Part shown: one piece after another, positions 2,130 to 63,757 of the stretch
Numbering within the stretch: position 1 is the stretch's first letter
How the letters are laid out: each line of letters starts with the position of its first letter
From: Margaritifera margaritifera
Lineage: Eukaryota > Mollusca > Bivalvia > Unionida > Margaritiferidae
DNA: 64,000 bases
Assembly (NCBI GenBank): GCA_029931535.1
Contig: JAQPZY010001688.1
Span: 1,208,501 to 1,272,500, forward strand
Direction of reading: 5' to 3'
Notes under the pieces: generated by a model
The model's input: the letters and a program-made list of their open reading frames with translations, nothing else
Told to the model about the DNA's origin: nothing
Databases searched by the model: none
Made by a program: the position numbers and the translations under genes

Positions 2130-2440
2130 AGTAGTAGGGGGGGGGTAAATAGGTCGGGGGGGGGCACTATAGGTACAAACGGGAATTTAGCATGGCGGGG
2201 GGCACTATAGGTACAAACGGGAATTTAGCATAGGGGGAGGCACTATAGGTACAAACGGGAAATTAACATTGGGGCCTCTACGGGTACAAACGGGAATTTA
2301 ACAGAGAGGGGGGCACTCTGGGTACAAACGGAAATTTAGCATTGGGGGTACTTGGGGTACCAACGGAAAATAAAAAAATGGCAATCATTGGAAAATTAAT
2401 CTTTTCTTGAAAAATGGGTGGCCCTGAAAAGAACCGTTGG
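2130..2440 (+). repeat. Left terminal repeat of element A with about six tandem units of roughly 38 bp
   Basis: After AGTAGTAG come two runs of nine G (2137-2145, 2156-2164). Tandem units follow of the form GGCACTATAGGTACAAACGG, each then GAATTTAGCAT and a G-rich spacer; about six units lie between 2160 and 2370. The end of the repeat carries a histone-type stem-loop. Element B has shorter but similar iterations (GGTCCTACGAGAAATTAACA) in its terminal repeats. Polinton ends are thought to be bound by the terminal protein and integrase, so repeated sites here are plausible, but binding is inference. Confidence 0.8.
2396..2440 (-). terminator. Histone-type 3' stem-loop and downstream element (copy 1)
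   Basis: On the minus strand the order is CCAAC, stem GGTTCT, loop TTTC, stem AGGGCC, then ACCCA, and about 5 bases later TCAAGAAAAGATT. The stem (2420-2435) pairs over 6 bp with two G-U pairs. It begins 14 nt after the stop codon of the minus-strand gene ending at 2450. Loop, both flanks and the purine-rich element match the known 3' processing signal of replication-dependent histone mRNA. Confidence 0.8.
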
Positions 2441-2449
2441 TGTTTTCTT

Positions 2450-2680
2450 TTAACATGCACATCTCCTGGAGGGTCTTCTTTTCCTTAAACTTCTACGGAC
2501 TTCCGGACCGTACATCAAGACCCTCTTCAGGCAGCCTTGTCTTTCTATATAGATGCGACGTTTCCATATGGCGGTCTCTGTGATTTTAGTAATGGCCCAT
2601 GAGGCTTTTACATACATGGGGAATGCTGGGTTAAACAACATCCCCGAGATAATAGTCGATGATTTCACACTTGTCCACAT
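2450..2680 (-). CDS. Conserved 76-residue basic protein, unknown function
   Basis: I do not recognise this protein. It is accepted as a gene because the same 76-residue frame exists in element B (44456-44686) with mostly conservative changes: the core KRRIYIERQGCLKRVL is identical, and both end in a basic, Cys-rich tail (RRCAC here, RRCTC in B). A hydrophobic segment with SGMLFNPAF and MYVKASWA lies in the N-terminal third; the C-terminal third is strongly basic (RRSLRKRRPSRR), so nucleic-acid or nuclear localisation is possible. It is transcribed toward the element end, diverges from the gene at 2940, and is followed directly by a histone-type stem-loop. It is short and could be an early regulatory protein, which is inference. 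Confidence 0.65.
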   Translation of the reverse strand: MWTSVKSSTIISGMLFNPAFPMYVKASWAITKITETAIWKRRIYIERQGCLKRVLMYGPEVRRSLRKRRPSRRCAC

Positions 2681-2734
2681 TTTGTTTTTCTTCTGGAGTG
2701 ATCTTGGAGAAAAAAAACCGATGAAGCTCTACGA

Positions 2735-2880
2735 GACAAGCGGTGGTATATATACCCTACGATCGGATTGAAATGCATCGAAATCAACTACCAATCCAAG
2801 CGCGCGTTACAAGAGGGTCGGATTTTCTTCCAATAGGAAGAGAGTAGGGGTGTGACGTCATTTAGGGTATACAGGCATCA
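2735..2880. promoter_or_regulatory. Divergent promoter with CRE, CCAAT and TATA-like elements (element A)
   Basis: Between the divergent genes lie a palindromic GGTATATATACC (about 2745-2756), which can act as TATA for the minus gene, two CCAAT motifs, and TGACGTCA (2853-2860), a perfect cAMP-response element. It is followed 8 bp later by TATACA (2868-2873) where element B has TATAAA. The layout is shared with element B (44735-44880), which supports function; the damaged TATA suggests weakening in A. Confidence 0.65.
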
Positions 2881-2939
2881 CAGCGTTAGTAGGGCTTTTA
2901 CTTTTTTGGACACCCTAAATAGAGACTACCAAGACCAGT

Positions 2940-3512
2940 ATGTATTGGGGTGAACCTGCAACGAATGCTTTGTTAAACTTCCAACCGGAAGAGTTTAATT
3001 TAGATTTTCTGTCTCAAGAATTTGAGCCTGAAATCACTACGACTGCTGCTGTACCAGCCTCTTTGCTGCCTGTCATGGACAATTTCAAAAAGAGGCAGCA
3101 AGAAGAAATGAAAATATTTTTACAGCGACAGAGAGAAGCGGAAGAAGTGTTTTTTCAACAAGAAGAGGAAAGGAGAAAACGAGAAGAAGAAATAAGACAG
3201 TTAGAAGAGGAGAAGAGTGAAGCACCGCAAGAAGAGAGTCAGGAAAATAAAACGGTGAGTCTACTACTCCAAGACATTTTACGTGAGTTAAAGCATCTAA
3301 GAAGGTTATATGAATATTCTTTAACTCAGCCTAGGAGAAAAAGACCATCACGGGCTAAACATGCGAAACCCATTACTACTTCTACTGAGATGCTACCACC
3401 ACCACCACCACCACCAGTCACTACTACTACCACCAAAGCAGCAGCAGCAGGAATTGGACTGGGTCGTGGAAAAGGATTACGACAATTGAAGTTGATCATG
3501 TCCACTCCATAA
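2940..3512 (+). CDS. Coiled-coil protein with conserved GLGRGKGLR tail, unknown function
   Basis: A 190-residue protein. Residues about 54-105 are almost entirely Glu, Gln, Lys and Arg in a heptad-like pattern (EEERRKREEEIRQLEEEKSE), predicting a long coiled coil. A conserved helix follows (SLLLQDILRELKHL), then basic KRPSRAKHAK, a proline run with Thr tracts, and the tail GLGRGKGLRQLKLI. The same order is seen in element B (44948-45546), where the gene has lost its frame near codon 24. It starts 66 bp after the TATA-like site and ends 27 bp before a histone-type stem-loop. No known family is recognised. The C-terminal motif, conserved across both copies, is the best candidate for a functional element. 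Confidence 0.75.
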   Translation: MYWGEPATNALLNFQPEEFNLDFLSQEFEPEITTTAAVPASLLPVMDNFKKRQQEEMKIFLQRQREAEEVFFQQEEERRKREEEIRQLEEEKSEAPQEESQENKTVSLLLQDILRELKHLRRLYEYSLTQPRRKRPSRAKHAKPITTSTEMLPPPPPPPVTTTTTKAAAAGIGLGRGKGLRQLKLIMSTP

Positions 3513-3534
3513 GTTTGTTTAACAAACAAACACC

Positions 3535-3580
3535 CCAACGGTCCTTTTCAGGGCCACCCAGATCTCTAGAAAAGAAATCA
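3535..3580 (+). terminator. Histone-type 3' stem-loop and downstream element (copy 2)
   Basis: CCAAC (3535-3539), stem GGTCCT (3540-3545), loop TTTC (3546-3549), stem AGGGCC (3550-3555), ACCCA (3556-3560), then a purine-rich TAGAAAAGAAATC. The loop TTTC and flank ACCCA are the metazoan histone consensus. It lies 27 bp after the stop of the coiled-coil gene. The remaining bases to 3780 are non-coding; an AATAAA sits at about 3730. Confidence 0.82.
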
Positions 3581-3780
3581 AATTGCCAAAAATAAAAAAT
3601 CAAGTAAAACTTTAAAAATCCCCATTTGTGTAAGAGTGAGTGCGAGCGTGCGTGTATCATCCATACTCTAAAACTTAATAACACAAAAACACTTATTTTT
3701 TTCCGTTCTGGTGTATTCTCTTTTTTTTTAATAAATAATTCACCATGAACATCACACTACACTCCAAAAAAGTTCATTGT

Positions 3781-4275
3781 TCACTGTCTGTCTCTCTTGT
3801 TCTTCTTGAATTTCTTCACAGGGATCAAGGGTTCTTTTTCTTCTTCACTGCCTTCCATCCATCTAACTTTCTTGCTTTTCTTGACGATATGTTCTTCTTC
3901 TTCTTCTAGGTTTGAAGATCCTTCGGCTTCCTCCCTCTCTGGTAGATTTTCTTCTTGTTTTTGAGGATACTCCGAAGACCAATGTCCTTTTCCTTTACAA
4001 TGATAACAAGTATATTTTCCTTTATCTCTGTTTTGATTTTGACGTTGTGGACATTCTGGAGCCCAATGTCCTTTCTCTTGGCAGATATAGCAAGTATCTT
4101 GACTTTTATCTCTCTTTTCTTTTCTTTGTTGACGTTGTGGACATTCTGGAGCCCAATGTCCTTTCTCTTGGCAGATATAACAAGTATCTTGACTTTTATC
4201 TATCTTTGCTGTTCCTCGGCTTAGATAATTCCAATAATAGGAAGCAAAATTTCTTTTCTTGTGGCATTGAGACAT
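3781..4275 (-). CDS. CCHC zinc-knuckle protein (three knuckles, third broken)
   Basis: A 164-residue protein with retroviral nucleocapsid/CNBP-type knuckles C-x2-C-x4-H-x4-C: residues 32-45 and 62-75 (CYICQEKGHWAPEC, identical) and a third at 90-103 (CYHCKGKGHWSSEY) whose last Cys is Tyr. The C-terminal half is acidic, then ends in a Lys-rich tail. I chose the ATG at 4275 because it aligns with the start in element B (46315); an upstream ATG at 4296 is also in frame. Such knuckles bind single-stranded nucleic acid; here a role in packaging or RNA handling is only inferred. The gene diverges from the polymerase gene. The duplicated knuckle comes from a 70 bp tandem duplication absent from element B. 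Confidence 0.82.
   Translation of the reverse strand: MSQCHKKRNFASYYWNYLSRGTAKIDKSQDTCYICQEKGHWAPECPQRQQRKEKRDKSQDTCYICQEKGHWAPECPQRQNQNRDKGKYTCYHCKGKGHWSSEYPQKQEENLPEREEAEGSSNLEEEEEHIVKKSKKVRWMEGSEEEKEPLIPVKKFKKNKRDRQ
4041..4200. repeat. 70 bp segmental duplication inside the zinc-knuckle gene
   Basis: 4041-4110 and 4131-4200 are the same sequence except one base (4090 G, 4180 A), period 90 bp. Each unit encodes one CCHC knuckle plus the linker DKSQDT. Element B has a single unit, so this is a recent, in-frame gain of a zinc knuckle in element A. Confidence 0.85.
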
Positions 4276-4383
4276 CTTTACAGTTTGAAAGTTCAATCAC
4301 AAAGACTGATTCTGAAGGTAAGAGGGTCTCTCTATATATAGGTTCCTGTGTGAAACTCCATCAGATCTAAATCAGATTTCAAG

Positions 4384-7300: not shown

Positions 7301-8549
7301 GTAAAGTCTTACCTCACCACCCCATCTTACCTCACCATTGCCAAGGAAAACTGATGTTTCCTTTATGCCGTACGTGTGCCGAAACATGCAACCAAGATCA
7401 CCCCTGTCACCACACGGAGGAAGAACGGTCTTTGACAGGAACGTGGGTCGGCGCCGAATTGTTTCGAGCTCTGGATCGTGGATACCGTTTGTTGAAAGTG
7501 TACGAAATCTGGCACTTTCCAACCACATCACAATACCAAAAGGACGACGCCACGAATCATCCAGGCATTTTCTCGGGGTACGTCAGCCAATTTTTAAACT
7601 GAAACAAGAAGCCAGCGGCTATCCTTCGTGGTGTCAGACTCCCGAAGACCAAATCCGATTCAAAGAAGAGTACCGTAACGTCGAAGGCATCACTTTGGAA
7701 GACGTGGAAAAGAACGAAGTAAAAAGATCGTTTGCCAAAGTCATGCTCAATTATTTGTGGGGAAAAATGGCCCAACGACCCATCTTAACCAAGACGGAAT
7801 ACGTGACCGATCCTTATCGCTACTTTCAACTGGTGGACGACAAAAGTGTACTAGTCAAACACGTCGAAATCGTCCGTGATGATTTGATCTTAGTCAATTT
7901 CGAAGAAGAACCCAAGTTTGTAAAACCTGACAAGTTTAGCAACGTAGTCATTGGCGCCTACGTGACCGCCCATGCTCGTTTGAAGTTGTACGACGAAGCT
8001 TTAGAAGTCTTGGGAGATCGTGTCCTGTACTTTGACACCGACAGTTGCATGTACATCCATCGACCCGGTTGCCCACACCCTACCATCCAAGGAGATCGTT
8101 TAGGAGCCTGGACAGACAAGCACCCTCAAGACACCATCCTGAGTTTTGCCAGTGGCGGCCCTAAAAATTACGGCTACCGATACCGAGACCTACAAGGACA
8201 ATTTTACACCCAATGCAAAGTAAAAGGATTGACCTTCAACTATCGAACCAGCCGAGTGGTCAATTTTGAGGTTTTGAAAAATGCTTTGCTGTCTGGATAA
8301 GTGGAAGACTTTCGAGTGCACACGTTAGAACCTCACAAGATCGTACGGTTACCTAATCACCAAATTGTCACTCGTCCTTTACAAAAAGTGTACCAAATCG
8401 TGTACCAGAAGCGAGTGAGACTTCCAGACCACACCACTTTGCCTTACGGACACGACGATCTGCAGTATAAAAAAGGGACCCCTTCCAAGCCAAACCATTC
8501 ATTGCAAATACAGACGTCAACCGAGCAAGAAGAAGAAAAAGATGAGTAA
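4384..8549 (+). pseudogene. polB: Protein-primed DNA polymerase B (pPolB), disrupted
   Basis: This would replicate the element from its protein-capped ends. In order one sees an N-terminal conserved region, a part resembling an OTU-type fold (DQMCLARAI ... EHFDTI), Cys/His-rich zinc clusters (about 5449-5790), exonuclease motifs FFDFEC (5852-5869), HNFSGYDGQF (about 6118-6147) and YCRSDVD (about 6495), then polymerase motifs DVCSLYP (7181-7201), KVMLNYLWGKMAQ and YFDTDS (8029-8046). Lesions against element B: TGA at 5437-5439, frameshifts between about 5985 and 6205, a one-base loss near 7594, and TAA at 8298-8300. Length and domain order fit Polinton polymerases. It cannot make a full protein. 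Confidence 0.93.
8463..8490 (+). promoter_or_regulatory. TATA-like site at the polymerase/BIR junction
   Basis: GTATAAAAAAGGGACCCC lies 70-80 bp before the BIR start. In element B the same string occurs twice, once at the polymerase end (about 50594) and once just before the second BIR gene (about 50982). Element A has one junction that combines both. Confidence 0.5.
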
Positions 8550-9090
8550 TTTTGTCATCCTCCCACCAAAGATGAATAAGAATACTCATGCCACCCACCC
8601 ACCAAGGGAGAAATCTAGTGTGAACTCCAAGTGCCATCACGACTTGAAGTGCGATGCAGTGCCATGCGAGGAGACGGATTCCGTACGCTTTGGCATCAGC
8701 GATTCACACGATGAGACGGATTCCGTACGCTTGGACATCACCGATGCAGCACCTCACCGTCCCTTTTACGATGCAGGAACACCTTTACTCTTTATTAATC
8801 GTACACATAATTGTCATATCTTCAGGAGTAAAGAATTGACGATACCTGTGGCTTTGCCTGGTTATTCCAAGTTTGAAAAGCGACTCAAGACGTTCCAAGA
8901 CAAGTGGCCTAATTATCTACTACAAGCAACTACTGCCAAAGCTTTAGCCAGATCTGGATTTATCTACTTGGGAGAAGGAGATAAAGTTCAGTGTTTCAGT
9001 TGCGGTGTGAGACTTCACCAATGGGAGCCTACCGACTCAGCTTACATTGAACATGCCAGATGGTCTCCGCACTGTAGTTCTTACCTTTAG
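8542..9090 (+). CDS. BIR-domain (IAP-like) protein, shortened C-terminus
   Basis: A 182-residue protein with one baculovirus IAP repeat at about 107-180. The zinc ligands are C151, C154, H171 and C178 with the canonical C-x2-C-x16-H-x6-C spacing, and the peptide-groove WEP segment is present. BIR domains bind caspases or their antagonists and block apoptosis, so this is probably a host-death control gene. The N-terminal part is divergent and contains two repeats of ETDSVR. It overlaps the polymerase 3' end by 8 bp (ATGAGTAA). A one-base loss near 9080 relative to element B removes the last ~20 residues after the BIR. No RING domain is present. Element B has two BIR genes here. Confidence 0.88.
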   Translation: MSNFVILPPKMNKNTHATHPPREKSSVNSKCHHDLKCDAVPCEETDSVRFGISDSHDETDSVRLDITDAAPHRPFYDAGTPLLFINRTHNCHIFRSKELTIPVALPGYSKFEKRLKTFQDKWPNYLLQATTAKALARSGFIYLGEGDKVQCFSCGVRLHQWEPTDSAYIEHARWSPHCSSYL

Positions 9091-9114: not shown

Positions 9115-10185
9115 ATGAGCCAGATGCCAAGAAGAAGTAACATGTCGGATGATACTTTACAAGAATACATTCATGGTTTACCTTGGGAGTTGCGAGAACA
9201 CATTTACCAGTATTTACCTAGCTTAGAAGACCGCATTCGTGGTTTACCTTTGGAGTTGCGAGAACGCATTTACAGAGAATGGGTTCAGATACAAGTGAAA
9301 CGTAAAGCACAGTTACATTATTTACGACATACATGTTTTAACCATTGGTATCTGAATGCTGTAAGAATACTGATTAGTGTCAAGTTGTTCAAATGGTCAG
9401 ACATTGACAGAAATGGAAATTGGGCTTGTAAGGAATTGGATGGCACCACCTACCGTGTGGGAGTGATTCATAGAATTCGATGGAACGAAGTAAAGGAAAC
9501 AACCAACTTACAGGAATACCAAAAACGTTTACGAGAAGTGTCACCTCAAGACGAAACGCCTTTACGTCAAGTGAGGTTGTGTAGTACGATCCTCACTGAA
9601 CATCTTGGACAACCTTTACCCACCAATTCCATTTGGCTAAAGTGTGACTGTTTTGTCACCAAGAAGACTAGTTTAGAAGACCGCATTCGTGACTTGCCTT
9701 CGAAGCTGCGAGTACGCATTTACAAAGAGTTGGTCCAGATCCAAGTGAAACGCAAACTCAAATTCATTCCTCGATTTTTAAACTACCGCGACTTCCAACG
9801 TATCAGAAGTCTGATTCTGGAGAGAAACTATCACCGCTATCGTGAAGAACACAAAAGAGAGTTACTTCTTTCCAAGTCGGATACTTTACAAGAACACATT
9901 CGTGGTTTGTCTTTGGAGCTGCGAAAACTCATTTACCAAGAGTTGGTCCCGATCCAAGTGAAACGCAAACTCAAAGTCATTCCTCGATCTGTAAACTATG
10001 CTTACTTCCAAAGTATGAGGAGACTGATTCTGGGAAGATTCTATCGCTGGCACCTTGGAGAAGACTTTCACAAAAGATACCAACCTTGGGAACCTGGATA
10101 TAAAAACCCACCACAAAAGATACCCACCTTAGGAATCTCACCCTATAAGGTCTCACCATGTCAGGACTGTGGTCTTCACTTGTGA
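9115..10185 (+). CDS. Protein with four F-box-like repeats
   Basis: A 356-residue protein built from repeats that begin with a stretch like GLPLELRERIYREWVQIQVK. Such stretches occur near residues 19-35, 39-62, about 190-212 and about 263-287, the last two each followed by a similar RKLK.IPR...Y..F...R.LIL segment. The leucine-proline start and the spacing of hydrophobic residues resemble the F-box core that recruits SKP1/cullin ubiquitin ligases; this is resemblance, not proof. The start ATG lies just after the BIR gene; in element B the two genes overlap. The 3' end overlaps the next gene by 28 bp. Neighbourhood with BIR genes suggests host-manipulation functions. Confidence 0.75.
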   Translation: MSQMPRRSNMSDDTLQEYIHGLPWELREHIYQYLPSLEDRIRGLPLELRERIYREWVQIQVKRKAQLHYLRHTCFNHWYLNAVRILISVKLFKWSDIDRNGNWACKELDGTTYRVGVIHRIRWNEVKETTNLQEYQKRLREVSPQDETPLRQVRLCSTILTEHLGQPLPTNSIWLKCDCFVTKKTSLEDRIRDLPSKLRVRIYKELVQIQVKRKLKFIPRFLNYRDFQRIRSLILERNYHRYREEHKRELLLSKSDTLQEHIRGLSLELRKLIYQELVPIQVKRKLKVIPRSVNYAYFQSMRRLILGRFYRWHLGEDFHKRYQPWEPGYKNPPQKIPTLGISPYKVSPCQDCGLHL

Positions 10186-19518: not shown

Positions 19519-19821
19519 TATCTTGTTGATTGTTAGTTTGAAATTTTTATGTTAGAGAAGCTTCTTCTTGTCCATTAAAAAATGTTGATTTTTTGAAAAA
19601 AAAATTGTGTTGTGTGGTTTATTGAATTTGAAAAACAAAATGTATAGGCTCTATCTATCTCTTTCTATCGATCTGAAGTCACCACCTCTATCCATTTTCT
19701 CACTCTCGATCTGAACCCCATGTTTTCCATCGCGTCCGCGCTTCAAGCATATAAAGCGGTGCGTTGGCTAGTGTAGTCAGCAGCGAACATAGAAGAGAGA
19801 ACACGTAGTTAATCCTTAGCG
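19519..19821 (+). promoter_or_regulatory. 3' region of the protease and right-end promoter box (element A)
   Basis: There is no gene here. After an AT-rich stretch, ATGTTTTCCATCGCGTCCGC (19720-19739) is followed by GCTTC and TATAAA at 19750-19755, and then GGCTAGTGTAGTCA. The same box, spacing and downstream string occur in element B (62552-62612) before an unrelated coding sequence, so this is very likely a promoter. Confidence 0.75.
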
Positions 19822-20866
19822 ATGGAAATAATAATCCCAGAACACGCCCTGAGTGCACTGAAGGGTTTATGCCTTCCTGTTGCAACTGGATGGAGCCTTC
19901 GGGCTCAGGAGAAGAGGACAACTCTTCTCCTAATTTGGGAAGAAGACAGAAGTAACCAAAGAGAAATAACCCCATGGGAAAGAAGAGGGCCAATGGATAG
20001 AAGCCCATGGGAGAGAAGAGGGCCTTATAGAAGCCCAGAACAGGGATGAAGATCACCAACACAGTGGAGGAGTTTTAGGCAGACGCCCTACACGCAGCAA
20101 AGGCAGAGTCAGCTTACACAACCTGCCCCTCCCGAGGGACCCAAGAAAACATCGGGTGAAACATTGTCACCTTCCATCAGGACTACAACAACAACAACAA
20201 CAACATCTACACCCCTAAAGGTAATGATAACTCCTGAGGAAATCAAGAAAAAAGAAACAAAAGGGACTCAAGTTACCCCCAAGGCACCACAAACAGTCAA
20301 GCCAAAGGAAACAAAAGGAACCCAAGTCACCCCCACAGCATCACCAGTTTCTTCAACACCAAGGTCACCAAAAAAACCTCCGGAAAAACAGTTGGAAACA
20401 CCGGTAGCGGCGGAACAGTGCAAGTCACCCCCCACCCACCTCAGTACCAACTCCACCACAGGAATTGAGTGACCTAGAAATGAAAAGGCAGGGTGAACAA
20501 TGTACATATGATTGTTCATATGGTATGGGACAAAACGAATTATGGACGAATAAAAAGGCAGCCTCCCAATACATAGAAGATTTTGGATTGGTAGTCCAAT
20601 CAAAAGTCCAATCAGTGCGTGGTGGCAGACAATCTAGAGTCAACAAAACTCGGACCAAAAAAGCAGCCGAGTCATTCCAAAAATGGGGGCAAAAGTATGC
20701 CGATTGCCCAATAATTGTAGCGATTTGTATCATTAACCTCCTGGCAAATTACCACGGGCTCGAGAAACCAAAAAAATTCCAACTAGAAGCGTCCCAAATA
20801 GCCCGAAAGAGAGGGATAGACAGACGCCCAGACAAAGCAGCAGCTGTTTTTTTATATTTATTTTGA
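19822..20866 (+). pseudogene. Element A right-end accessory gene, unknown, broken
   Basis: The ATG at 19822 follows the promoter box by about 70 bp. The frame has a TGA at 20047-20049, then stays open in the same frame to 20472; the remainder is open in a shifted frame to 20866. The middle is Thr/Pro/Lys-rich with a repeated KETKGTQVTP motif; the last part (CTYDCSYGMGQNELWTNKKA, CPIIVAICIINLLANYHGL) looks like a folded domain that I do not recognise. Element B has different genes at this place. The boundary with host or LINE sequence near 20850 is unclear, so the 3' end may not be native. Confidence 0.5.
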
Positions 20867-43225: not shown

Positions 43226-43470
43226 AGTAGTAGAGTGGGAGTGTTGAGGGTCGTGGGGGACACTCTGGGGTCCTACGAGAAATTAACATGGCGGGGACAC
43301 TACAGGGTCCTACGAGAAATTAACATGGTGGGGGCACTACGGGAGTTTAACATTGGGAACAGTCTGGGGTCCTACGGAAGTTTTTAACGTGGCGGGAGTG
43401 TGGGTGGGGGTGTGGGAGGGAATAGAATTAATCTTTCTTGATAAAGGGTGGTCCTTAGAAGGACCGTTGG
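43226..43470 (+). repeat. Left terminal inverted repeat of element B
   Basis: 245 bp. It pairs with 63716-63970 except for a 10 bp gap and about four substitutions. It starts AGTAGTAGAGTGGGAGTGTT, contains about four iterations around GGTCCTACGAGAAATTAACA (period near 38 bp), then a pyrimidine/purine-skewed GTGGGTGGGGGTGTGGGAGG, and its inner end is the histone-type stem-loop. So the stem-loop is part of the repeat itself. Confidence 0.93.
43431..43470 (-). terminator. Histone-type 3' stem-loop and downstream element (copy 3)
   Basis: On the minus strand: CCAAC, stem GGTCCT, loop TCTA, stem AGGACC (43450-43465), ACCC, then TTTATCAAGAAAGAT. The stem is six Watson-Crick pairs. The loop fits U-Y-U-N, and CAAGAAAGA equals the element known downstream of sea urchin histone stem-loops. 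It begins 17 nt after the stop of the gene at 43483. Confidence 0.85.
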
Positions 43471-43482
43471 AGGAGGAATATT

Positions 43483-44079
43483 TTATTTCCTCCAACATTT
43501 GGTAAAGAAGCTTAGGAAGGTGGTGGATCTTTTTTTCTTGGTTGGAAGTGTTGGTGAATCAGGTAGCCAGTCAGGATGTTTCATCCGCCTGAATTTATCT
43601 TGGATTTTCATCCAATTTAAATTCATCCGTTGAAATTCCATTTCTTTCCTGGCTTCTTCTTTCTTCTTTCTTTCAAGAGCCCACAAGATTTTAATGTAGG
43701 CTACTTCTTGCTCTAAAGCTTGTTTTAACAATAGGGTTGTCGTGTGAATATTTATCTCTTCACGCCTGACACAACTAGTGGGTGGATACGACCATTCATC
43801 TTGTTGAACAAGGTGAAGGAAGTATTTCACTTCATCTAGTAAGTCAAGGGATTTTTTGATAAAACCCACACGACAAGGAGCACAAGAAGAAGAAGTTTTT
43901 AGTCTTTCCTCCACCAAAACATCATTCACCAACCTCCTCGCTGAAATGAGAGCCGCTAGTTGGCTGGTGACAAATGGTTTGGTGGTAGGATATCTCCACC
44001 AATACTCCAACCTTTCCATTAACGACTCCACATCCACCATCCTATCCCAAGCTTCCTGCAAGAGGTCTACAGTATTCAT
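43483..44079 (-). CDS. Helical protein at the left end of element B, unknown function
   Basis: 198 residues, rich in Leu, Glu, Lys and Trp, predicted mostly alpha-helical: MNTVDLLQEAWDRMVDVESL at the start, a possible CAPC motif near residue 67, a charged helix (ERKKKEEARKEMEFQRMNLN) and a basic end. I do not recognise it. It has no counterpart in element A. It is transcribed toward the terminus and has its own promoter box (44123-44160) and histone-type 3' end, so it looks like a functional accessory gene. A weak likeness of its first helix to the right-end gene at 63400 could mean they are diverged paralogues. Confidence 0.7.
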   Translation of the reverse strand: MNTVDLLQEAWDRMVDVESLMERLEYWWRYPTTKPFVTSQLAALISARRLVNDVLVEERLKTSSSCAPCRVGFIKKSLDLLDEVKYFLHLVQQDEWSYPPTSCVRREEINIHTTTLLLKQALEQEVAYIKILWALERKKKEEARKEMEFQRMNLNWMKIQDKFRRMKHPDWLPDSPTLPTKKKRSTTFLSFFTKCWRK

Positions 44080-44122: not shown

Positions 44123-44161
44123 CTTTATATTCGAGAAGCGCGGACGTGATGGAAAACATCC
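44123..44161 (-). promoter_or_regulatory. Terminal-gene promoter box with TATA (left)
   Basis: On the minus strand GATGTTTTCCATCACGTCCG, then CGCTTCTCG and ATATAAAG (44123-44130), about 45 bp before the ATG at 44079. The same box precedes genes at 19822, 62664 and 63400. Confidence 0.78.
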
Positions 44162-44365: not shown

Positions 44366-44389
44366 GATATAGGCAATCATTGGAAAAAT

Positions 44390-44433
44390 TAATCTTTTCT
44401 TGAAAAATGGTTGGCCCTTAGAAGGGCCTTTGG
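44390..44433 (-). terminator. Histone-type 3' stem-loop and downstream element (copy 4)
   Basis: On the minus strand: CCAAA (the exact metazoan 5' flank), stem GGCCCT, loop TCTA, stem AGGGCC (44413-44428), AACCA, then TTTTTCAAGAAAAGATT. It lies 27 nt after the stop of the gene ending at 44456 and corresponds to copy 1 in element A. The loop changed from TTTC to TCTA while pairing was kept. Confidence 0.85.
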
Positions 44434-44455: not shown

Positions 44456-44686
44456 TTAGCATGTACATCTTTGGCTAGGTCTTCTTTTTCTTCTACTTCT
44501 TCTAACTTCTGGTCCGAAGAGAAGGACTCTCTTCAAACATCCTTGACGTTCGATGTAGATACGCCTTTTCCATTCGGTGGATTCTGTTAGTTTTGTGGTA
44601 GCCCATGAGGCTTTTACATACATTAGGAATGCTGGATTAAACAGCATTCCCGAGACAATGTTCGATGCTTCCACGCTAACCCCCAT
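44456..44686 (-). CDS. Conserved 76-residue basic protein, unknown function
   Basis: Counterpart of the element A gene at 2450-2680, same length, with KRRIYIERQGCLKRVL unchanged. The differences are mostly in the N-terminus (VSVEASNIVSGMLFNPAFLM) and in scattered conservative positions. Keeping an open frame of identical length in two diverged copies argues for selection on the protein. It diverges from the coiled-coil gene and ends in a histone-type stem-loop. Confidence 0.7.
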   Translation of the reverse strand: MGVSVEASNIVSGMLFNPAFLMYVKASWATTKLTESTEWKRRIYIERQGCLKRVLLFGPEVRRSRRKRRPSQRCTC

Positions 44687-44734: not shown

Positions 44735-44880
44735 AAACAAGCGGTAGTATATATACCTTACGATAGGATTGAAATGGATCGAAATCAACTACCAATCCAA
44801 ATGCGCGTTACAAGTGGGTCGGGTTTTCTTCCAATGGGAAGAGAGCGGGGGTGTGACGTCATCTCGGGTATAAAGGTATC
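44735..44880. promoter_or_regulatory. Divergent promoter with CRE, CCAAT and TATA (element B)
   Basis: GTATATATACC near 44748 (TATA for the minus gene), CCAAT at 44831, TGACGTCA at 44854-44861 and TATAAA at 44869-44874. A canonical CRE seven bases before a TATA box is a strong arrangement for ATF/CREB-driven transcription of the plus-strand gene, as in adenovirus early promoters. Confidence 0.75.
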
Positions 44881-45577: not shown

Positions 45578-45625
45578 CCAACGGTCCTTCTAAGGACCAC
45601 CCAGATTTCTAGAAAAGAAATCAAA
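45578..45625 (+). terminator. Histone-type 3' stem-loop and downstream element (copy 5)
   Basis: CCAAC, stem GGTCCT (45583-45588), loop TCTA, stem AGGACC (45593-45598), ACCCA (45599-45603), then TCTAGAAAAGAAATC. Compared with copy 2 in element A, the fourth stem position changed from G-T to A-T pairing and the loop from TTTC to TCTA. 45626-45829 is non-coding. Confidence 0.83.
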
Positions 45626-45829: not shown

Positions 45830-46315
45830 TCACTGTCTGTCTCTCTTGTTCTTCTTAAATTTCTTCTTCATAGGAACCCTTATCGTCACAGGAATCATGT
45901 TTTCCATTTCTTCTTCTTCATTCTCACTGTCTTCCATTCTTCTCACTCTCTTCTTACTTTTCTTGATGATATGTTCTTCTTCTTCTTCTAGATTTGAAGA
46001 TCCTTCTTCTTCTTCCTCCCTCTCCTCTGGTAGATTTTCTTCTTCTTGTTCTTTCTGAGGGCATTCCGAAGACCAATGTCCTGGTCCTTTACAATGATAA
46101 CAGGTATCTTTTGTTTTGTCTCTCTTTTGCTGTTGACGTTGTGGACATTCTGGAGCCCAATGTCCTTTCTCTTGACAGATATAACAAGTATCTTGACTTT
46201 TATCTCGAGAGGTAGAGGAGGAGGAGTAGTCCTTACTCTTACTGCTAGTATACTTTCGAATGACTGTCTGCAAATCTCTCACCAAAAAAGCAATCTGTCT
46301 TTTTGACTCTTCCAT
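45830..46315 (-). CDS. CCHC zinc-knuckle protein (two knuckles)
   Basis: 161 residues. Knuckles at 44-57 (CYICQEKGHWAPEC) and 72-85 (CYHCKGPGHWSSEC), both with complete C-x2-C-x4-H-x4-C ligands. The N-terminus (RQIAFLVRDLQTVIRKY) and a Ser-rich linker differ from element A. The acidic region and Lys-rich tail (KKKFKKNKRDRQ) are conserved. It is most like retroviral nucleocapsid and CNBP knuckles; the rest does not look like Gag. It likely binds single-stranded DNA or RNA. It diverges from the polymerase gene with TATA-like sites around 46379-46410. Confidence 0.85.
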   Translation of the reverse strand: MEESKRQIAFLVRDLQTVIRKYTSSKSKDYSSSSTSRDKSQDTCYICQEKGHWAPECPQRQQQKRDKTKDTCYHCKGPGHWSSECPQKEQEEENLPEEREEEEEGSSNLEEEEEHIIKKSKKRVRRMEDSENEEEEMENMIPVTIRVPMKKKFKKNKRDRQ

Positions 46316-50634: not shown

Positions 50635-51027
50635 ATGTCTTCAATATGGGCTTTGCCTGACTATGGTGAGTGTGACAGTCGCTTGAAGACGTTCAAAATT
50701 TGGCCTAAACACATGCCTGACTATTGTTATTGTCCTCATCGATGGAGCACAAAAAAACTTAGGAACAATGGATTACCTACTTCCTACGCTTTAGCCAGAG
50801 CAGGCTTTGTTTACTTTGGACAGGGAACCAAAGTACAGTGTTTTAGTTGTGGTGTCACTATTCGTATGGATTGTAAGAAATCAGCTCTCCTGGAACATAG
50901 CAGATGGTCACCAAACTGTGCTTACCTTTCTTTAGCGTTTCCACGGATCACATTACAATACTTTTCGGATGGTACAGTCGACAGGTATAAAAAAGGAACC
51001 CCTTCCAAGTCTAACCCTTCATTCTAA
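50635..51027 (+). CDS. BIR-like protein 1 (atypical), element B only
   Basis: 130 residues with a BIR-like domain: C69, C72, H88, C95. The gap between C72 and H88 is 15 instead of 16 residues, and the usual WEP of the peptide-binding groove is replaced (IRMDCKKSALLEH), so caspase or IBM-peptide binding may be altered. It starts 15 bp after the polymerase stop. It lies between two copies of a GTATAAAAAAGGAA(A/C)C string, and element A lacks the gene. It is probably a diverged duplicate of the neighbouring BIR gene. Confidence 0.8.
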   Translation: MSSIWALPDYGECDSRLKTFKIWPKHMPDYCYCPHRWSTKKLRNNGLPTSYALARAGFVYFGQGTKVQCFSCGVTIRMDCKKSALLEHSRWSPNCAYLSLAFPRITLQYFSDGTVDRYKKGTPSKSNPSF

Positions 51028-51067: not shown

Positions 51068-51637
51068 ATGAGTCACCACGACTTGGAGTGTGATGCAGAA
51101 CCATGCAATGAAACGGATTCTGTACGGTTTGGTATTCCCGATTCACACGTCGTTCAAAAGGATTCCGTAGCTTGTAACATCTTGGATTCAGGACCCTCTC
51201 CAAGTCTCACCACCACTCATAGGCCACCCTCTAAAGAGGCAGTACGTCCTTTATGTTTTACTGGAAATACTAAAGGAACTGGTATTGACGTTAATGACAA
51301 CAAGGTGAATCTGGGTCCATATTCGCATATCAGAATACCTGTGAGTTTACTTGGTTATTCCAAGTATGAAAGTCGACTCGAGTCATTCAAAGACAAGTGG
51401 CCAAAATTTCTAGAAGGACCTAAACCGGAAGGTTTAGCTAGATCTGGATTTAAATTCACGGGAGAAGGAGATAAAGTTCAATGTTTCAGTTGTGGTGTGA
51501 AACTTCACCATTGGGAGCCTACCGACTCAGCTTACATTGAACATGCCAGATGGTCTCCGCACTGTCACTTCTTACCTTTAGTGGCTTTAGAACAGTACGG
51601 GTACGATGAGCCAGATGCCAAACAAAAGAAGAAGTAA
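51068..51637 (+). CDS. BIR-domain (IAP-like) protein 2
   Basis: 189 residues. One canonical BIR at about 95-168 with C139, C142, H159, C166 and HHWEPTDSAYIEH between ligands. It corresponds to the element A gene at 8542. The N-terminal 90 residues are poorly conserved and carry ETDSVRFG and KDSVAC, remnants of a short repeat. The C-terminal tail after the BIR (ALEQYGYDEPDAKQKKK) is kept here but lost in A. No RING or CARD is seen. Likely an apoptosis inhibitor. It overlaps the next gene by 32 bp. Confidence 0.88.
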   Translation: MSHHDLECDAEPCNETDSVRFGIPDSHVVQKDSVACNILDSGPSPSLTTTHRPPSKEAVRPLCFTGNTKGTGIDVNDNKVNLGPYSHIRIPVSLLGYSKYESRLESFKDKWPKFLEGPKPEGLARSGFKFTGEGDKVQCFSCGVKLHHWEPTDSAYIEHARWSPHCHFLPLVALEQYGYDEPDAKQKKK

Positions 51638-52715
51638 AAAAAATTCCTTGGCGGAGAAGGAGAATACTTCTTTAGAAGAATACATTACTGGTTTACCTTT
51701 GGAGTTGCAAGAACATATTTTTCAGTATATACCTCCTACCTTAGAAGATCGCATTTGTGGATTACCTTTGGAGATACGAGAACGGATTTACAAAGAATTT
51801 GTTCAGATTCAAGTGAAACGTAAAGAACAGTTACATCCTTTACGACAGACCTGTTGTAACCAATGGTATTTGAAGGCAATAAGACATTTGATTGCTGGTA
51901 AGATATTCAAATGGTCAGACATTGATGAAGAACAACATTACCAATTTAAGAAATTGGTGGGTGCCACCTACAATGTAGCAGTGGAATATAGAATTCGATG
52001 GAATGAAGTGAAGGAAAAAAATGTGACTAACATACAAGAATACCAAAAACTGTTACAAGAACTGTCCCCTCAAGACGAATCGCCTTTACGTGGTTTGAAA
52101 ATAGATAGGATAATCACTCAAACTTGTTTTGGATCATATCCTTTACCTACCGATTCCGTTTGGTTGGTGTGTGAGTATTTTGTCACCAAGAAGACTACTT
52201 TAGAAGACCGCATTCGTGACTTGCCTTTGAAGTTACGAAAACGGATTTACGATGAGTTGGTTCAGATTCAAGTGAAACGAAAACTTCAAGTGACTCCTCG
52301 ATTTCAATACTATGGCTACTTTCGTCGCATCAGAAATTTGATTCTGAGCAACGACTATCACCAGTATCGTGAAGAATACAAAAGAGAGTTACTTCTTTCC
52401 AAATCGGAAACTTTACCCAAGTACATTTATGGCATGCCTTTGAATGTGCGCGAAAGGATTTACCAAGAGTTTGTCAAGATCCAAGTGAAACGTAAAATCA
52501 AAGTCATTTCTCGATTTTTGCACTATACCCTCTTTCAAGGGCATAGAAGAATGGTTATGGGAAACGTCTATCGCTACTACTATCCTGAAGGAGACTGCCT
52601 CAAAAGGTACCAACTTTGGGAGCCTGGCTATAAAAACATGCCACCCAAGATACCTACCTTAGCCATCGACCCCTATAAAGAGGCGGCACGTCTGTACTGT
52701 TCACGTCACACGTGA
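51606..52715 (+). CDS. Protein with four F-box-like repeats
   Basis: 369 residues, full counterpart of 9115-10185. Repeat starts: EYITGLPLELQEHIFQYIP, then DRICGLPLEIRERIYKEFVQ, DRIRDLPLKLRKRIYDELVQ and KYIYGMPLNVRERIYQEFVK. The first is closest to a cellular F-box core (LPLEL..HIF.YIP). Between repeats 2 and 3 there is a ~150-residue region with FKWSDID and RIRWNEVKE. If the repeats bind SKP1, the protein could act with the BIR proteins on host ubiquitin or death pathways; this is inference. The frame is intact. Confidence 0.78.
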   Translation: MSQMPNKRRSKKNSLAEKENTSLEEYITGLPLELQEHIFQYIPPTLEDRICGLPLEIRERIYKEFVQIQVKRKEQLHPLRQTCCNQWYLKAIRHLIAGKIFKWSDIDEEQHYQFKKLVGATYNVAVEYRIRWNEVKEKNVTNIQEYQKLLQELSPQDESPLRGLKIDRIITQTCFGSYPLPTDSVWLVCEYFVTKKTTLEDRIRDLPLKLRKRIYDELVQIQVKRKLQVTPRFQYYGYFRRIRNLILSNDYHQYREEYKRELLLSKSETLPKYIYGMPLNVRERIYQEFVKIQVKRKIKVISRFLHYTLFQGHRRMVMGNVYRYYYPEGDCLKRYQLWEPGYKNMPPKIPTLAIDPYKEAARLYCSRHT

Positions 52716-59352: not shown

Positions 59353-59374
59353 CGAATTGTAACATCCAAAAAAA

Positions 59375-59824
59375 ATGTATCCAGTGTACCGAGGAGTGGC
59401 TCGACAACGAGGACATGGTTTAGGAGATATGTTAAAATCGGCTTTTCGGACGGTAGCTCCTATTTTGAAACCGATGGTAACTCGAGGATTTCATGCCTTA
59501 AAAGATGCTGCTTTGACACAAGGAAAAGAATTTTTGCAAAATGTCCTCATCGACAAACAAAATCCTAAAGAAGCTTTTATGAGAGCTGGCAAAAATGTGT
59601 TGATGACCACTGGTAAAGATCTTTTAGGTCTCCGAGAAAATCCTATAAATACGCTTCACGCTTCATTCTCTGGCATTACTTCACAGCAGCAAGGACAAGG
59701 TAGAAAGAGACGACGACGACATCGAAATCCTTTCAAAGTTCATAAAAGACCACACGGTAGTAGTTCCAGAAAGAATAGGAAAAGAAGAAGAACTGGTAGA
59801 GAATTAGACATGTTTGATTATTAA
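59375..59824 (+). CDS. Minor capsid/core-like protein
   Basis: 149 residues, close to 16552-16998: MYPVYRGVARQRGHGLGDML, FRTVAPILKPMVTRGFHAL, KEAFMRAGKNVLMTTGKDLL and a strongly basic tail (GRKRRRRHRNPF, RKNRKRRRTGREL). The conserved part is the first ~95 residues; the tail varies in length. It is read as an internal capsid or core protein by position and composition. Confidence 0.76.
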   Translation: MYPVYRGVARQRGHGLGDMLKSAFRTVAPILKPMVTRGFHALKDAALTQGKEFLQNVLIDKQNPKEAFMRAGKNVLMTTGKDLLGLRENPINTLHASFSGITSQQQGQGRKRRRRHRNPFKVHKRPHGSSSRKNRKRRRTGRELDMFDY

Positions 59825-59832
59825 CTGTGAAA

Positions 59833-61203: not shown

Positions 61204-61218
61204 AAGAAGAAAAAAAAG

Positions 61219-61755
61219 ATGCAGCACGAAGAACCTATGGAGATAGATGAGGGATTCTGTGAAGTGAATCATTCAGAACCTAGAATAGAAGAAGAAAAAG
61301 AAGAAGAAGAAGAAATCAATTCAGTTCCTGTGTTTACTGGATTTATGGCTTGTCGATGGCCAGAACACGAAAAACAGTTAGTGACCTGTTATGCTCAGGA
61401 ATTGAGTCCAATCATTAACAGTCTGATTAAAGAACAATGTTATGGATGTCAAAACGATCATCCCAGTCAGATACAACACGACAAATGTATGATGATGACA
61501 GGCGAAGAAAAATTGGATGAATATTTGGAAACGGTCTGGTCACAACTCTCGGATGAACACGTGTTGAGACAATGGTATAAAGTCTTGCAGAATTCTTCTT
61601 TTCCTCCACTTACTCCTCTGGAGATCAAACGGATCGAAGGACTCATTCATCAGAGTGCAGAACCTATCCGACGTGAATATTCGTGGAATTACAAGACAGA
61701 TACATTCAAGTTTAAAGTCAGGTGTGAATTGGTGACTCATTATTTCCATTGTTGA
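61219..61755 (+). CDS. Conserved Polinton protein with CxGC...HPSQ motif
   Basis: 178 residues. Acidic start (MQHEEPMEIDEGFCE), then CYGCQNDHPSQIQHDKCM with likely zinc ligands, EKLDEYLETVWSQLSDEHVL, TPLEIKRIEGLIHQ and a final KVRCELVTHYFHC. It shares all these points with the element A gene at 18380. Located between capsid and protease in both. Function unknown. Confidence 0.77.
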   Translation: MQHEEPMEIDEGFCEVNHSEPRIEEEKEEEEEINSVPVFTGFMACRWPEHEKQLVTCYAQELSPIINSLIKEQCYGCQNDHPSQIQHDKCMMMTGEEKLDEYLETVWSQLSDEHVLRQWYKVLQNSSFPPLTPLEIKRIEGLIHQSAEPIRREYSWNYKTDTFKFKVRCELVTHYFHC

Positions 61756-61767
61756 AGACAAAAAAAA

Positions 61768-62334
61768 ATGGATACCAGGGAACTTCATTACTTATTGAAT
61801 CGCGGTTCCTACACTTCTTCTTGGAATCCTGTGGTATATGCTAAAGATGAACTACCTCATCGTAAACCAAAAAACGTTCATGCCTATGTCATCAATACTG
61901 ATGACAGTGATCTACCAGGAACCCATTGGATTGCCGTGTACTTTCCCAACGCTCACTGTGTGGAATATTTTGATTCTTATGAATTACCTCCTTTGGAAAA
62001 AGACATCATCGAGTTTATGAGAAGAAATGCCGTCTCAACTCGATTCAATAATGTGAGACTACAAGGATCTGATTCCATGGTGTGTGGACAATATTGTGTC
62101 CATTATCTTCATCAACGCAGTCTTGGATATTCCTTAGAACATTTACTGACTTATTTTGATAGTGACTATGTTAGAAATGATGCTAAAGTACAACAATGGT
62201 TTTGTGAACGTTATGGTTATCTCTTGTCTTTAGCTCACAATCGTAGTGTGCATCAAAATGATGTAGATGTAGAAAGTTTGACATTTACTTTACCTTCCCA
62301 ACGTTGTCAACCTTGTAAATATGTTCCTGTTTAA
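61768..62334 (+). CDS. Adenain-like cysteine protease
   Basis: 188 residues. Catalytic H53 (GTHWIAVYF), D69 (EYFDSYE), Gln 99 and C106 (SMVCGQYC). It is two residues shorter than the A copy before the EYFD segment. Same family and role as in A, maturation of capsid and core proteins. Full-length and intact. The stop is followed by AATAAA at 62383-62388. Confidence 0.93.
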   Translation: MDTRELHYLLNRGSYTSSWNPVVYAKDELPHRKPKNVHAYVINTDDSDLPGTHWIAVYFPNAHCVEYFDSYELPPLEKDIIEFMRRNAVSTRFNNVRLQGSDSMVCGQYCVHYLHQRSLGYSLEHLLTYFDSDYVRNDAKVQQWFCERYGYLLSLAHNRSVHQNDVDVESLTFTLPSQRCQPCKYVPV

Positions 62335-62663
62335 TCTCTTGCTGAATGGTTAGTTTTTTTAATGTTAGAATAGTTATTGTTGAATAAAAACAATGCTATT
62401 GTTCTTTGAAAAAAAAATGGTGTTGTGTGTTTTTTTTTATTGAATTTGAAAATAATAATTATATTCTCTCTCTCTCTTTCTATCGATCTAAAAAAAACTA
62501 TCCTCTTTTTTTCCTCTATCTATGATCTCCCTGTCGATCTGACACCTTACCATGTTTTCCATCGCGTCCGCGCGTTATGCATATAAACCGGTACACTGGC
62601 CAGTGTAGTCATTCTCGTTGACTCGTCAAGATCTCAACAGTTCCAAAAAGAAGAAAGAAGAAG
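62335..62663 (+). promoter_or_regulatory. Poly(A) signal of the protease and right-end promoter box
   Basis: AATAAA at 62383-62388 with a T/GT-rich region after it; a CT-rich stretch; then ATGTTTTCCATCGCGTCCGC (62552-62571) and TATAAA at 62582-62587, followed by GGCCAGTGTAGTCA. Equivalent to 19720-19779 in element A. Confidence 0.78.
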
Positions 62664-62948
62664 ATGGCTGCCACCAAGATTACAAAGCTGAATGAAGCTA
62701 TGGTTAACATTCAAAGGGTGAAGAATCATTTGATGGAGACAAACCCAGAGAGAAAGACGATGACGTTCATTCAAATGGCGCATGATCTAGTAGAAGAGGT
62801 CATGAGAGAAGAAATACTTAGGGAAAGAACAGAATGGGAGGCAGCAGAACGACTGTGTGTGTTTTATATGTTTTGTAATGTTTTTGTGATAGTCTACCCC
62901 ACCAAAAAAACCCCTTCTCCCCTTGTATGTTTTGTGTGGTGTGATTAA
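62664..62948 (+). CDS. Small helical protein, right end of element B
   Basis: 94 residues in the open frame. Residues 1-66 (MAATKITKLNEAMVNIQRVK; VEEVMREEILRERTEWEAAE) are helical and charged. The last ~28 residues are encoded by the 70 bp subterminal inverted repeat and read as hydrophobic/Cys-rich (LCVFYMFCNVFVIVY), so the natural protein may have been fused to repeat sequence. It lies behind a strong promoter box. I see no histone-type stem-loop after it. Unknown function. Confidence 0.55.
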   Translation: MAATKITKLNEAMVNIQRVKNHLMETNPERKTMTFIQMAHDLVEEVMREEILRERTEWEAAERLCVFYMFCNVFVIVYPTKKTPSPLVCFVWCD

Positions 62949-62951
62949 TAT
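62882..62951. repeat. 70 bp subterminal inverted repeat, right
   Basis: Reverse complement of 44216-44286: GTGATAGTCTACCCCACC and CTCCCCTTGTATGTTTTGTG are shared, with a shorter homopolymer. Together the two define inner borders of the terminal modules. Confidence 0.85.
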
Positions 62952-63399
62952 ATTAAAAAAATTTAAAAACTAAAAAATAGGAATGGTGAATGAAAGTTTA
63001 ATATAAAAATTTTTTAAAAAAAAAGAAAGGGTTATGTGTGGTGTGTGAAAATTTTATATAAAAAAAATATACAAAAATGGTTGTGTAGTGTGTGTAAGTT
63101 TTTAAAATAAAAAAGTTTTTTTAAAAATAAAAAAATTAGGAATGGTATGGTGTGTATGTTTGATTTTTATCAAAAGTAGTTTCTTTTAGGTCCGCGCTTT
63201 TTAGAGCCAGGGGTCATGGAGTGCAAACTCCGCGAAGCCAAGAATGACGTAGAAAGAATTACGTCAGACGCGGGGTAGTGGGGTGATGTTTTTTTTTGTT
63301 TTTTTTTTACGTGTAAGGGATGTTTTCCTTCACGTCCGCGCTTCTAGTATATTAAAACAACGTCTTCACAACTTAAGCTATCCCAGTTTATTCAAGAGA
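62949..63399 (+). promoter_or_regulatory. Right-terminal intergenic region: inverted CRE-like pair and promoter box
   Basis: 62952-63180 is A/T-rich with repeated TGTGTGGTGTGTG and poly-A/T tracts. A partial box AGGTCCGCGC occurs at 63188-63197. TGACGTA (63245-63251) and TACGTCA (63260-63266) form a perfect inverted pair around GAAAGAAT. GATGTTTTCCTTCACGTCCG (63319-63338) with TATATT at 63348 precedes the gene at 63400. Confidence 0.7.
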
Positions 63400-63693
63400 A
63401 TGAACAGATCTGAAATAATCAGACAAGTTAGAGTACATCTAGAGGTGGCGTGGCACCTCCTCCATGACTTAGAAAAAAAGGAGGAGGAGGAGATGAAGAA
63501 GGAGGAGAGGGAAAGTAAAATTCCCATCAGACCTCATCCAATGTTGGAGGACTCCAATAAAGAAAATTGGGATCCGGAAGCGGATCATCCACCTTTTTCA
63601 TTTAAAAAAACCAACCGCTGCATGAGTTTAAAAACATGGAAGGGGAGCTGTCCTGCATGCAGGGCAAAGCCTGGGAGGTGCCCACACCTCTAA
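63400..63693 (+). CDS. Right-terminal small protein, unknown
   Basis: 97 residues. A helix at the start (MNRSEIIRQVRVHLEVAWHL), a Glu/Lys stretch (EKKEEEEMKKEERE), SNKENWDPEADHPPFSF, and a Cys-rich end with CPAC and CPH (C-x2-C-x6-C), which may bind metal. The longer frame upstream (from 63283) runs through the promoter and is rejected. The gene points to the terminus and ends 23 bp before a histone-type stem-loop, mirroring the left-end gene at 43483. Confidence 0.68.
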   Translation: MNRSEIIRQVRVHLEVAWHLLHDLEKKEEEEMKKEERESKIPIRPHPMLEDSNKENWDPEADHPPFSFKKTNRCMSLKTWKGSCPACRAKPGRCPHL

Positions 63694-63715
63694 GTGTACT
63701 CTAAAAACAAAAAAA

Positions 63716-63757
63716 CCAACGGTCCTTCTAAGGACCACCCTTTATCAAGAAAGATTA
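63716..63757 (+). terminator. Histone-type 3' stem-loop and downstream element (copy 6)
   Basis: CCAAC (63716-63720), stem GGTCCT (63721-63726), loop TCTA, stem AGGACC (63731-63736), ACCC, then TTTAT and CAAGAAAGA at 63746-63754. It is the inverted-repeat partner of copy 3. CAAGAAAGA is the sea urchin-type histone downstream element that pairs with U7 snRNA. Confidence 0.86.

Follow-up and report, generated by a model that had tools for sequence, protein, structure and literature searches.

Do genes that encode no histone use the regulatory signals of histone genes? To our knowledge, histone-type 3' ends are usually seen as exclusive to histone genes. There, as described in sections of PMC7614891 and PMC5011920, a stem-loop bound by stem-loop-binding protein (SLBP), together with a downstream element that pairs with U7 small nuclear RNA (snRNA), leads to cleavage without poly(A) addition and to expression linked to S phase. 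The question is raised by a 64,000-nucleotide stretch of the genome of the bivalve Margaritifera margaritifera (contig JAQPZY010001688.1, positions 1,208,501 to 1,272,500, forward strand), here called the window and numbered from its first letter. The window contains two related Polintons, virus-like mobile elements, and an original prediction made from the letters alone had placed six histone-type 3' processing signals behind their accessory genes. On the evidence set out below, we consider it quite probable that the Polinton accessory genes imitate replication-dependent histone genes in their expression. The host histone signals around these genes probably serve to have them expressed during host DNA replication.

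Polinton A occupies approximately 2.3-19.8 kb and has a damaged right end, and Polinton B spans 43.2-64.0 kb. The elements are identified as Polintons by Pfam matches and by their inverted repeats. The matches comprise a DNA polymerase B (PF03175, E 4.5e-7), an rve integrase (E 8.4e-14) with a chromodomain (Chromo, E 2e-4), an A32-like packaging ATPase (Pox_A32, E 4.6e-8) and an adenovirus-type protease (Peptidase_C5, E 0.0043), the chromodomain and the protease both lying under the curated cut-off. The accessory genes, their 3' signals and the terminal inverted repeats of Polinton B are arranged as follows (ORF, open reading frame; bit scores are those of the Rfam family RF00032, Histone3):

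2395..2440, minus strand: stem-loop and downstream element after L2 of Polinton A; 31.1 bits, E 5.9e-5; stop-to-stem distance 14 nt
2450..2680, minus strand: accessory gene L2 of Polinton A; ORF of 76 amino acids
2940..3512, plus strand: accessory gene R1 of Polinton A; 190 amino acids, no Pfam family
3535..3579, plus strand: stem-loop and downstream element after R1 of Polinton A; 31.1 bits; stop-to-stem distance 27 nt
43226..43470: left terminal inverted repeat of Polinton B; by self-comparison, 94.5% identical to 63716-63970
43427..43470, minus strand: stem-loop and downstream element after L1 of Polinton B, within the inverted repeat; 34.5 bits; stop-to-stem distance 17 nt
43483..44079, minus strand: accessory gene L1 of Polinton B; 198 amino acids, single open frame
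44388..44433, minus strand: stem-loop and downstream element after L2 of Polinton B; 39.9 bits, E 3.1e-8; stop-to-stem distance 27 nt
44456..44686, minus strand: accessory gene L2 of Polinton B; ORF of 76 amino acids
45073..45546, plus strand: R1 of Polinton B; ORF of 157 amino acids from an internal Met, the frame being broken further upstream
45578..45622, plus strand: stem-loop and downstream element after R1 of Polinton B; 38.1 bits; stop-to-stem distance 36 nt
62664..62948, plus strand: accessory ORF of Polinton B; 94 amino acids, MAATKITKLNEAMVN.., probably truncated
63400..63693, plus strand: accessory gene Rend of Polinton B; 97 amino acids, MNRSEIIRQVRVHLEVAWHLLH..
63716..63759, plus strand: stem-loop and downstream element after Rend of Polinton B, within the inverted repeat; 34.5 bits; stop-to-stem distance 27 nt
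63716..63970: right terminal inverted repeat of Polinton B, by self-comparison

The six predicted sites proved to be real. All of them match Histone3 (Rfam cmscan, E ≤ 5.9e-5), four above the gathering score of 34 bits (34.5-39.9 bits) and both Polinton A sites below it, at 31.1 bits. The stems, the loops (TTTC and TCTA), the element CAAGAAA(A)GA at four sites and the strands are as predicted, and each stem lies on the sense strand, 14-36 nt past the stop of an accessory gene. The count requires a correction: positions 43427-43470 and 63716-63759 are identical in sequence because both are located in the terminal inverted repeats of Polinton B, so that the window contains five independent sites rather than six. 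Self-alignment places the inner edge of these repeats at the first base of the stem-loop element, and the two outward-facing genes, L1 and Rend, therefore both obtain their 3' signal from the repeat. In Polinton B the signal stands behind L1, L2, R1 and Rend, four of the five accessory genes recognisable there, and in Polinton A behind two, L2 and R1; TTGCC follows the downstream element of the R1 site of Polinton A by 7 nt. No stem-loop was found behind the fifth accessory ORF of Polinton B (62664-62948); its relative at locus L010 has one. A search of the 64-kb window at E ≤ 1, core replication and capsid genes included, gave no further Histone3 match, and accessory and core genes therefore seem to be under different control.

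No Pfam family was found for L1, R1 or Rend in a scan of those three (L2 was outside the scan), and no L1 homologue was found in a large protein set at E ≤ 0.001. An AlphaFold prediction for L1, made without an alignment, consists entirely of helices, with a predicted local distance difference test (pLDDT) score of 61. The accessory genes may work like replication-dependent histone genes in their regulation, yet they encode no recognisable histone.

The genome-wide counts and samples all refer to one host genome of 2.45 Gb. An exact pattern that combines stem-loop and downstream element matched 6,374 places (3,095 + 3,279) and a control pattern none (0 + 0), which speaks against random scatter; the figure counts pattern matches irrespective of whether they lie in Polintons or in other sequences. 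A genome search with Histone3, the covariance model by which the original prediction could be checked, scored the best 75 of 508,685 candidates, all of them above the cut-off, with Polinton copies reaching 45.8 bits. The 30 top-scoring matches are all of the Polinton signal form (ORFs were read for 8 of the 30). The predicted position relative to stop codons also holds across the genome: at 90 distinct sites with stem and downstream element, taken from loci mostly chosen by hairpin or by L1, an ORF of at least 60 amino acids ends within 60 nt upstream in 64 cases on the sense strand and in 3 on the antisense strand.

Because the first loci had been chosen by hairpin score, two samples were drawn by protein rather than by hairpin. 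The L1 sample comprises 20 copies taken in steps of seven down a list of the best 150 of 4,011 candidates. The full 6-bp stem is present in 18 of these copies, 15-17 nt past the stop; one further copy keeps five of six pairs, and in one the stem is lost or deleted. Many L1 copies in the genome have open frames and near-equal scores, an observation pointing to recent activity of the element. The R1 sample, also of 20 copies at roughly every seventh rank, gave a full stem in 18, four of six pairs in one and no stem in one. The full stem is thus present in 36 of the 40 protein-chosen copies, and the third loop base is T in all 37 retained loops.

Stem changes that preserve pairing, part of the original prediction, were found as well. 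Across 45 distinct 26-nt sites, standard pairing occurs in 98.5% of pair cells, a value reached in none of 500 shuffles, although the pattern by which the sites were picked fixed most of the stem, so that the figure leans upward. Both-sided changes occur in 19 pair cells, again reached in 0/500 shuffles, and fall at two of the six stem pairs; pairing in the slid control did not exceed 58.1%.

We compared these signals with the histone genes of the host, which are arranged in tandem units of approximately 8 kb. In one such unit a Histone3 stem-loop (36.1-38.0 bits) closes each of the genes H4, H2B, H2A, H1 and H3, with stems 27-36 nt past the stop; Histone3 sites at single host histone loci score 25.9-37.7 bits. 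As the original prediction would have it, these signals and their spacing recur at the 3' ends of the species' own histone genes: the distance from stem to purine-rich element is 13 nt in 8 of 10 host histone sites and in 76 of 79 listed Polinton sites, the latter representing 75 distinct places, since four were listed twice through overlapping loci. TTGCC is an additional element that the earlier account did not contain. It is found 14 nt past the purine element in 6 of the 10 host sites, 6-19 nt past it in 72 of the 79 listed Polinton sites and, as TTGCC or TTGCT, in 16 of 18 protein-chosen R1 copies. The sequences flanking the stem differ, being mostly CCAAC/ACCCA in Polintons and mostly AAAC/ACACA in host histones, so the Polinton signals are not a recent copy of those of the host.

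Histone-type sequences are also found at the 5' ends of some accessory genes. The 21-nt element TGTTTTCMATCACGTCCGCGC precedes host H2B and H1 and, reversed and with one mismatch, host H2A. The promoter-element counts cover the window, one host histone unit and the sampled loci, and the promoter features of the window are:

2853..2860: TGACGTCA, cAMP-response-element (CRE)-like, with CCAAT boxes near; in Polinton A between L2 and R1, which are divergent
19721..19741, plus strand: histone-promoter element at the right end of Polinton A, 1 mismatch
44125..44130, minus strand: TATA box of L1, 7 nt past the histone-promoter element
44138..44158, minus strand: histone-promoter element TGTTTTCCATCACGTCCGCGC, an exact match to the host H2B promoter, within a shared word of 23-24 nt
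62553..62573, plus strand: histone-promoter element before the accessory ORF of Polinton B, 1 mismatch
63179..63197, plus strand: GTTTCTTTTAGGTCCGCGC, an exact match to the host H4 promoter element
63321..63341, plus strand: histone-promoter element before Rend, 1 mismatch

With up to three mismatches allowed, the histone-promoter element has four matches in the window and none in 100 shuffles, and all four lie at Polinton accessory regions (19721, 44158 on the minus strand, 62553 and 63321). The host histone unit has three matches, compared with none in 200 shuffles. In Polintons the element is typically followed by a TATA box after 6-7 nt and by the ATG after about 57-60 nt. It is present, with at most one mismatch, in 11 of 12 L1 loci chosen by protein, the window's own among them. 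Exact copies of the H4 element GTTTCTTTYAGGTCCGCGC are found at 63179 in Polinton B and at four further Polinton loci. The longest non-simple words common to the histone unit and the window are precisely these two promoter elements, of 23 and 19 nt; a hand estimate that assumes even base use puts the expected number of shared words of at least 19 nt at about 0.004, and 600 random 21-nt picks from the histone unit, low-complexity stretches being skipped, gave no window match at up to one mismatch. L1- and Rend-type genes have an H2B/H1 or H4 element upstream of their TATA box, and L2 and R1 have none. The shared promoter elements lend the histone-pathway reading independent support.

The region common to L2 and R1, with its CCAAT boxes and TGACGTCA, is possibly a two-way promoter of another type; TGACGTCA and CCAAT also occur between L2 and R1 of Polinton B, at 44854-44861. 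What follows the element at 19721..19741, at Polinton A's right end, has probably been broken up near 19775 by another repeat. Within 19721-20000, the sequence from about 19775 onwards is held in common with locus L051, and the 20-nt word shared there is probably an inserted repeat.

The trans-acting factors of histone processing were sought in the host. The host has an SLBP exon containing TPNK and SRRSWD, which matches a histone RNA hairpin-binding protein in the PDB (E 5.9e-13). A genome search with the Rfam U7 model gave no match among the best 65 of 776,085 candidates, and no control genome matched either. Two patterns for U7 were discarded: the first showed no signal, with 293 places in the genome and 316 in the control, and a narrower one gave five copies of a single dispersed repeat that is not U7. 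A third pattern gave 27 places, of which one (C813:273655), with TCTTTTC, AGTTTCTCTAG and a hairpin, is likely to be U7, although its identity is not settled. It was examined together with 17 of the 26 other pattern places. For pairing with the 10 host histone sites it was the best of these 18, with a mean of -18.6 kcal/mol and the next at -16.4. GGCAA stands directly upstream of the candidate. Once GGCAA is included, mean pairing of the candidate is -22.4 kcal/mol with host sites and -18.6 kcal/mol with 64 distinct Polinton sites, and at least four pairs form within GGCAA at 9/10 host and 63/64 Polinton sites. Of the 1024 possible 5-mers at this place, GGCAA takes rank 2 with the host sites and rank 9 with 25 sampled Polinton sites. 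TTGCC had already been noticed when the U7 candidate was found. The complementarity of the elements to U7, a comparison proposed with the original prediction, is as tentative as this candidate.

Several observations weigh against an expression of the accessory genes through the histone pathway, or lessen what the evidence for it can carry. Concerning U7, the third pattern found 35 places in its control, more than the 27 of the genome, and itself required TCTTTT and a U7-type Sm site. The candidate was then chosen by eye out of those 27 places for what we take to be a resemblance to sea-urchin U7. It scores 25.7 bits with the Rfam U7 model, under the gathering score of 34. A rival place, L149, reaches 26.7 bits, also below the threshold, and may be a U7 gene, a relic or a chance match. 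In pairing with the 64 Polinton sites the candidate ranks second of 18 (-14.9 against -15.6 kcal/mol). Its 5' end could not be placed by comparison with U2 upstream regions, since the stretches used did not read as U2 starts.

Further points of this kind concern the Polinton signals themselves, for which all evidence comes from a single host species. Seven of the 19 retained L1 copies (among L095-L114) have loops CATC or CCTC, unlike those of the host, their third base still being T. TTGCC or TTGCT occurs in none of the 19 retained protein-chosen L1 copies, which are those nearest Polinton B. Two of the five pairing measures are unexceptional, the number of pairs with a both-sided change being matched by 62 of 500 shuffles and the number of further pair types by 290. 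The 45 sites were picked by a pattern that fixes most of the stem and allows C/T against A/G at two variable pairs, and they include one variant added by hand. Among the sampled R1 copies, the spacer between stop and stem is as conserved as the stem-loop (0.978 and 0.977), and the R1 copies are therefore too young to show selection through conservation. The L1 locus L094 has no histone-promoter element, and L2 and R1 lack the H2B/H1 promoter element. Finally, AATAAA at 3591-3596, 15 nt past the GAAAAGA of Polinton A R1, makes polyadenylation possible at that gene. The motif A[A/T]TAAA lies within 200 nt of the stop in 2 of 21 examined Polinton B genes, too few to build on; one of the two, the protease gene, closes the core block.

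If the accessory genes do imitate replication-dependent histone genes, host SLBP and the U7 small nuclear ribonucleoprotein (snRNP) would bind the accessory pre-mRNA, and the histone cleavage complex would cut it shortly past the stem. The message would have no poly(A) tail and would be stabilised and translated via SLBP. Accessory transcripts would then end at the element's own inverted repeats, and the accessory proteins would appear together with host histones in S phase, possibly also in oocytes and cleaving embryos. The element would thereby act while the replication machinery and nucleotides of the host are available. We also lean, with less assurance, towards a broader version, in which the histone disguise covers both gene ends across the Polinton population, the proteins are made in step with host histones, and U7 pairing involves two segments. 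Production may then take place at histone locus bodies, and U7 would recognise the pre-mRNAs through TCTTTTC and GGCAA.

The same signals could serve the element in other ways. Histone-type control might be real and tuned to the germ line, that is, to oocytes and early cleavage divisions, in which new copies become heritable. The high copy number of the elements (the best 150 of 4,011 L1 candidates, many of them near-equal) implies germ-line activity, but part of PMC12803260 describes control of histone messages in oocytes that is independent of SLBP; we regard this alternative, which overlaps with S-phase expression and differs in timing, as rather doubtful. It is unlikely that the 3' ends, although genuinely of the histone type, benefit the element merely as compact, tail-independent termination at its edges and not through cell-cycle timing. 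The coincidence of the inner repeat edge with the stem-loop, where the outward genes L1 and Rend end, fits such a use, whereas the internal genes L2 and R1 bear the signal too and histone promoter elements at the 5' end have no purpose in termination.

Two further explanations deny the signals a present role in histone-type expression. Regulatory pieces once captured from histone genes may be carried along passively and no longer work, an idea in keeping with the youth of the R1 copies, whose spacer is conserved like the stem. We nevertheless judge it very improbable, given the both-sided pair changes across families (with the reservation about how the sites were picked), the T kept as third base in all 37 loops, the presence of the signal behind several different accessory genes and the flanks that set the Polinton sites apart from those of the host. 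That the hairpins are structures of DNA or packaging, acting in replication origin, transposition or encapsidation and resembling histone signals by accident, is scarcely credible: two of the six sites do lie inside terminal repeats, but the strand and stop distance (64 sense against 3 antisense among 90), the downstream element at histone spacing and the histone promoter elements all argue against it. Imitation of replication-dependent histone genes remains the explanation that we prefer.

The rest of the elements offers a few additional observations. Two genes of Polinton B encode BIR domains (inhibitor of apoptosis), at 50635-51027 and 51068-51637 (Pfam E 6.6e-14 and 6.7e-23); 8542-9090 of Polinton A resembles them by appearance, the Pfam scan having covered the two of B. 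In both elements R1 is faced by a minus-strand gene of the zinc-knuckle (CCHC) type, at 45830-46315 in B, where it was recognised by Pfam, and at 3781-4275 in A; these genes have no histone-type 3' end. A gene with several internal LPLELRERIY-type repeats lies at 51606-52715 and 9115-10185, and its copy in B has no Pfam family. For the scanned pieces of the DNA polymerase B, Pfam gave no OTU family at E ≤ 1. The capsid alignment gave no match in the PDB, and relatives of the capsid-block protein were found in bivalve genomes. A search for the mollusc haemocyanin domain in the host genome had no match, and neither had its control.

The Polinton genes share with metazoan replication-dependent histone genes (Rfam RF00032, SLBP/U7) the stem-loop, the 4-nt loop and the purine element at host spacing. 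They are likewise short, single-frame genes, some with a TATA promoter and host histone elements. They differ in encoding no recognisable histones, in belonging to a many-copy virus-like element and in the flanks CCAAC/ACCCA. With Polintons/Mavericks and adintoviruses the elements have in common the DNA polymerase B, the rve integrase with chromodomain, the A32-like ATPase, the adenovirus-type protease, the inverted repeats and the capsid-block protein; what sets them apart are the histone signals at promoter and 3' end of the accessory genes. Bracovirus H4 is a histone-like gene carried by a virus. In the adomavirus 'Histoid' genes, as far as PMC11071296 describes them in part, a protein has been borrowed, whereas here it is the regulation that appears borrowed and the proteins are not histones.

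The original prediction knew of no report of such signals in Polintons. This held with respect to their use, of which we found no discussion; however, one section of PMC12220804 counts six histone 3' untranslated region (UTR) stem-loops in genomes of polinton-like viruses and virophages and none in 1,107 cryptophyte elements. That section gives a count only, without position, gene, host, downstream element or promoter. A search of the open-access literature for Polintons and histone stem-loops returned no report beyond this count. The word stem-loop is absent from the main text of PMC11071296 and PMC11071308, and the accessible part of PMC12721341 has nothing on such signals. In the IMG/VR database, neither of two stem-loop patterns was matched, nor was the Polinton capsid-block protein or polymerase; an alignment search there gave 67 pattern matches, none of which was confirmed. 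As far as we searched, the new part is the occurrence of histone signals at both gene ends and in very many copies, the elements and the signals themselves being known.

If the accessory genes are indeed expressed in this way, a mobile element would have borrowed the control of histone genes wholesale, of which we found no description. Poly(A)-selected RNA data could then miss the accessory genes of Polintons, and the reason would be clear. Under the broader version, with the disguise at both gene ends, silencing would be hard for the host without touching its histone supply. The thousands of signal variants in one genome constitute a natural experiment on which parts of a histone signal matter. 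For Polintons, whose gene expression is little known, histone-type control would provide a route by which they tie themselves to host DNA replication.

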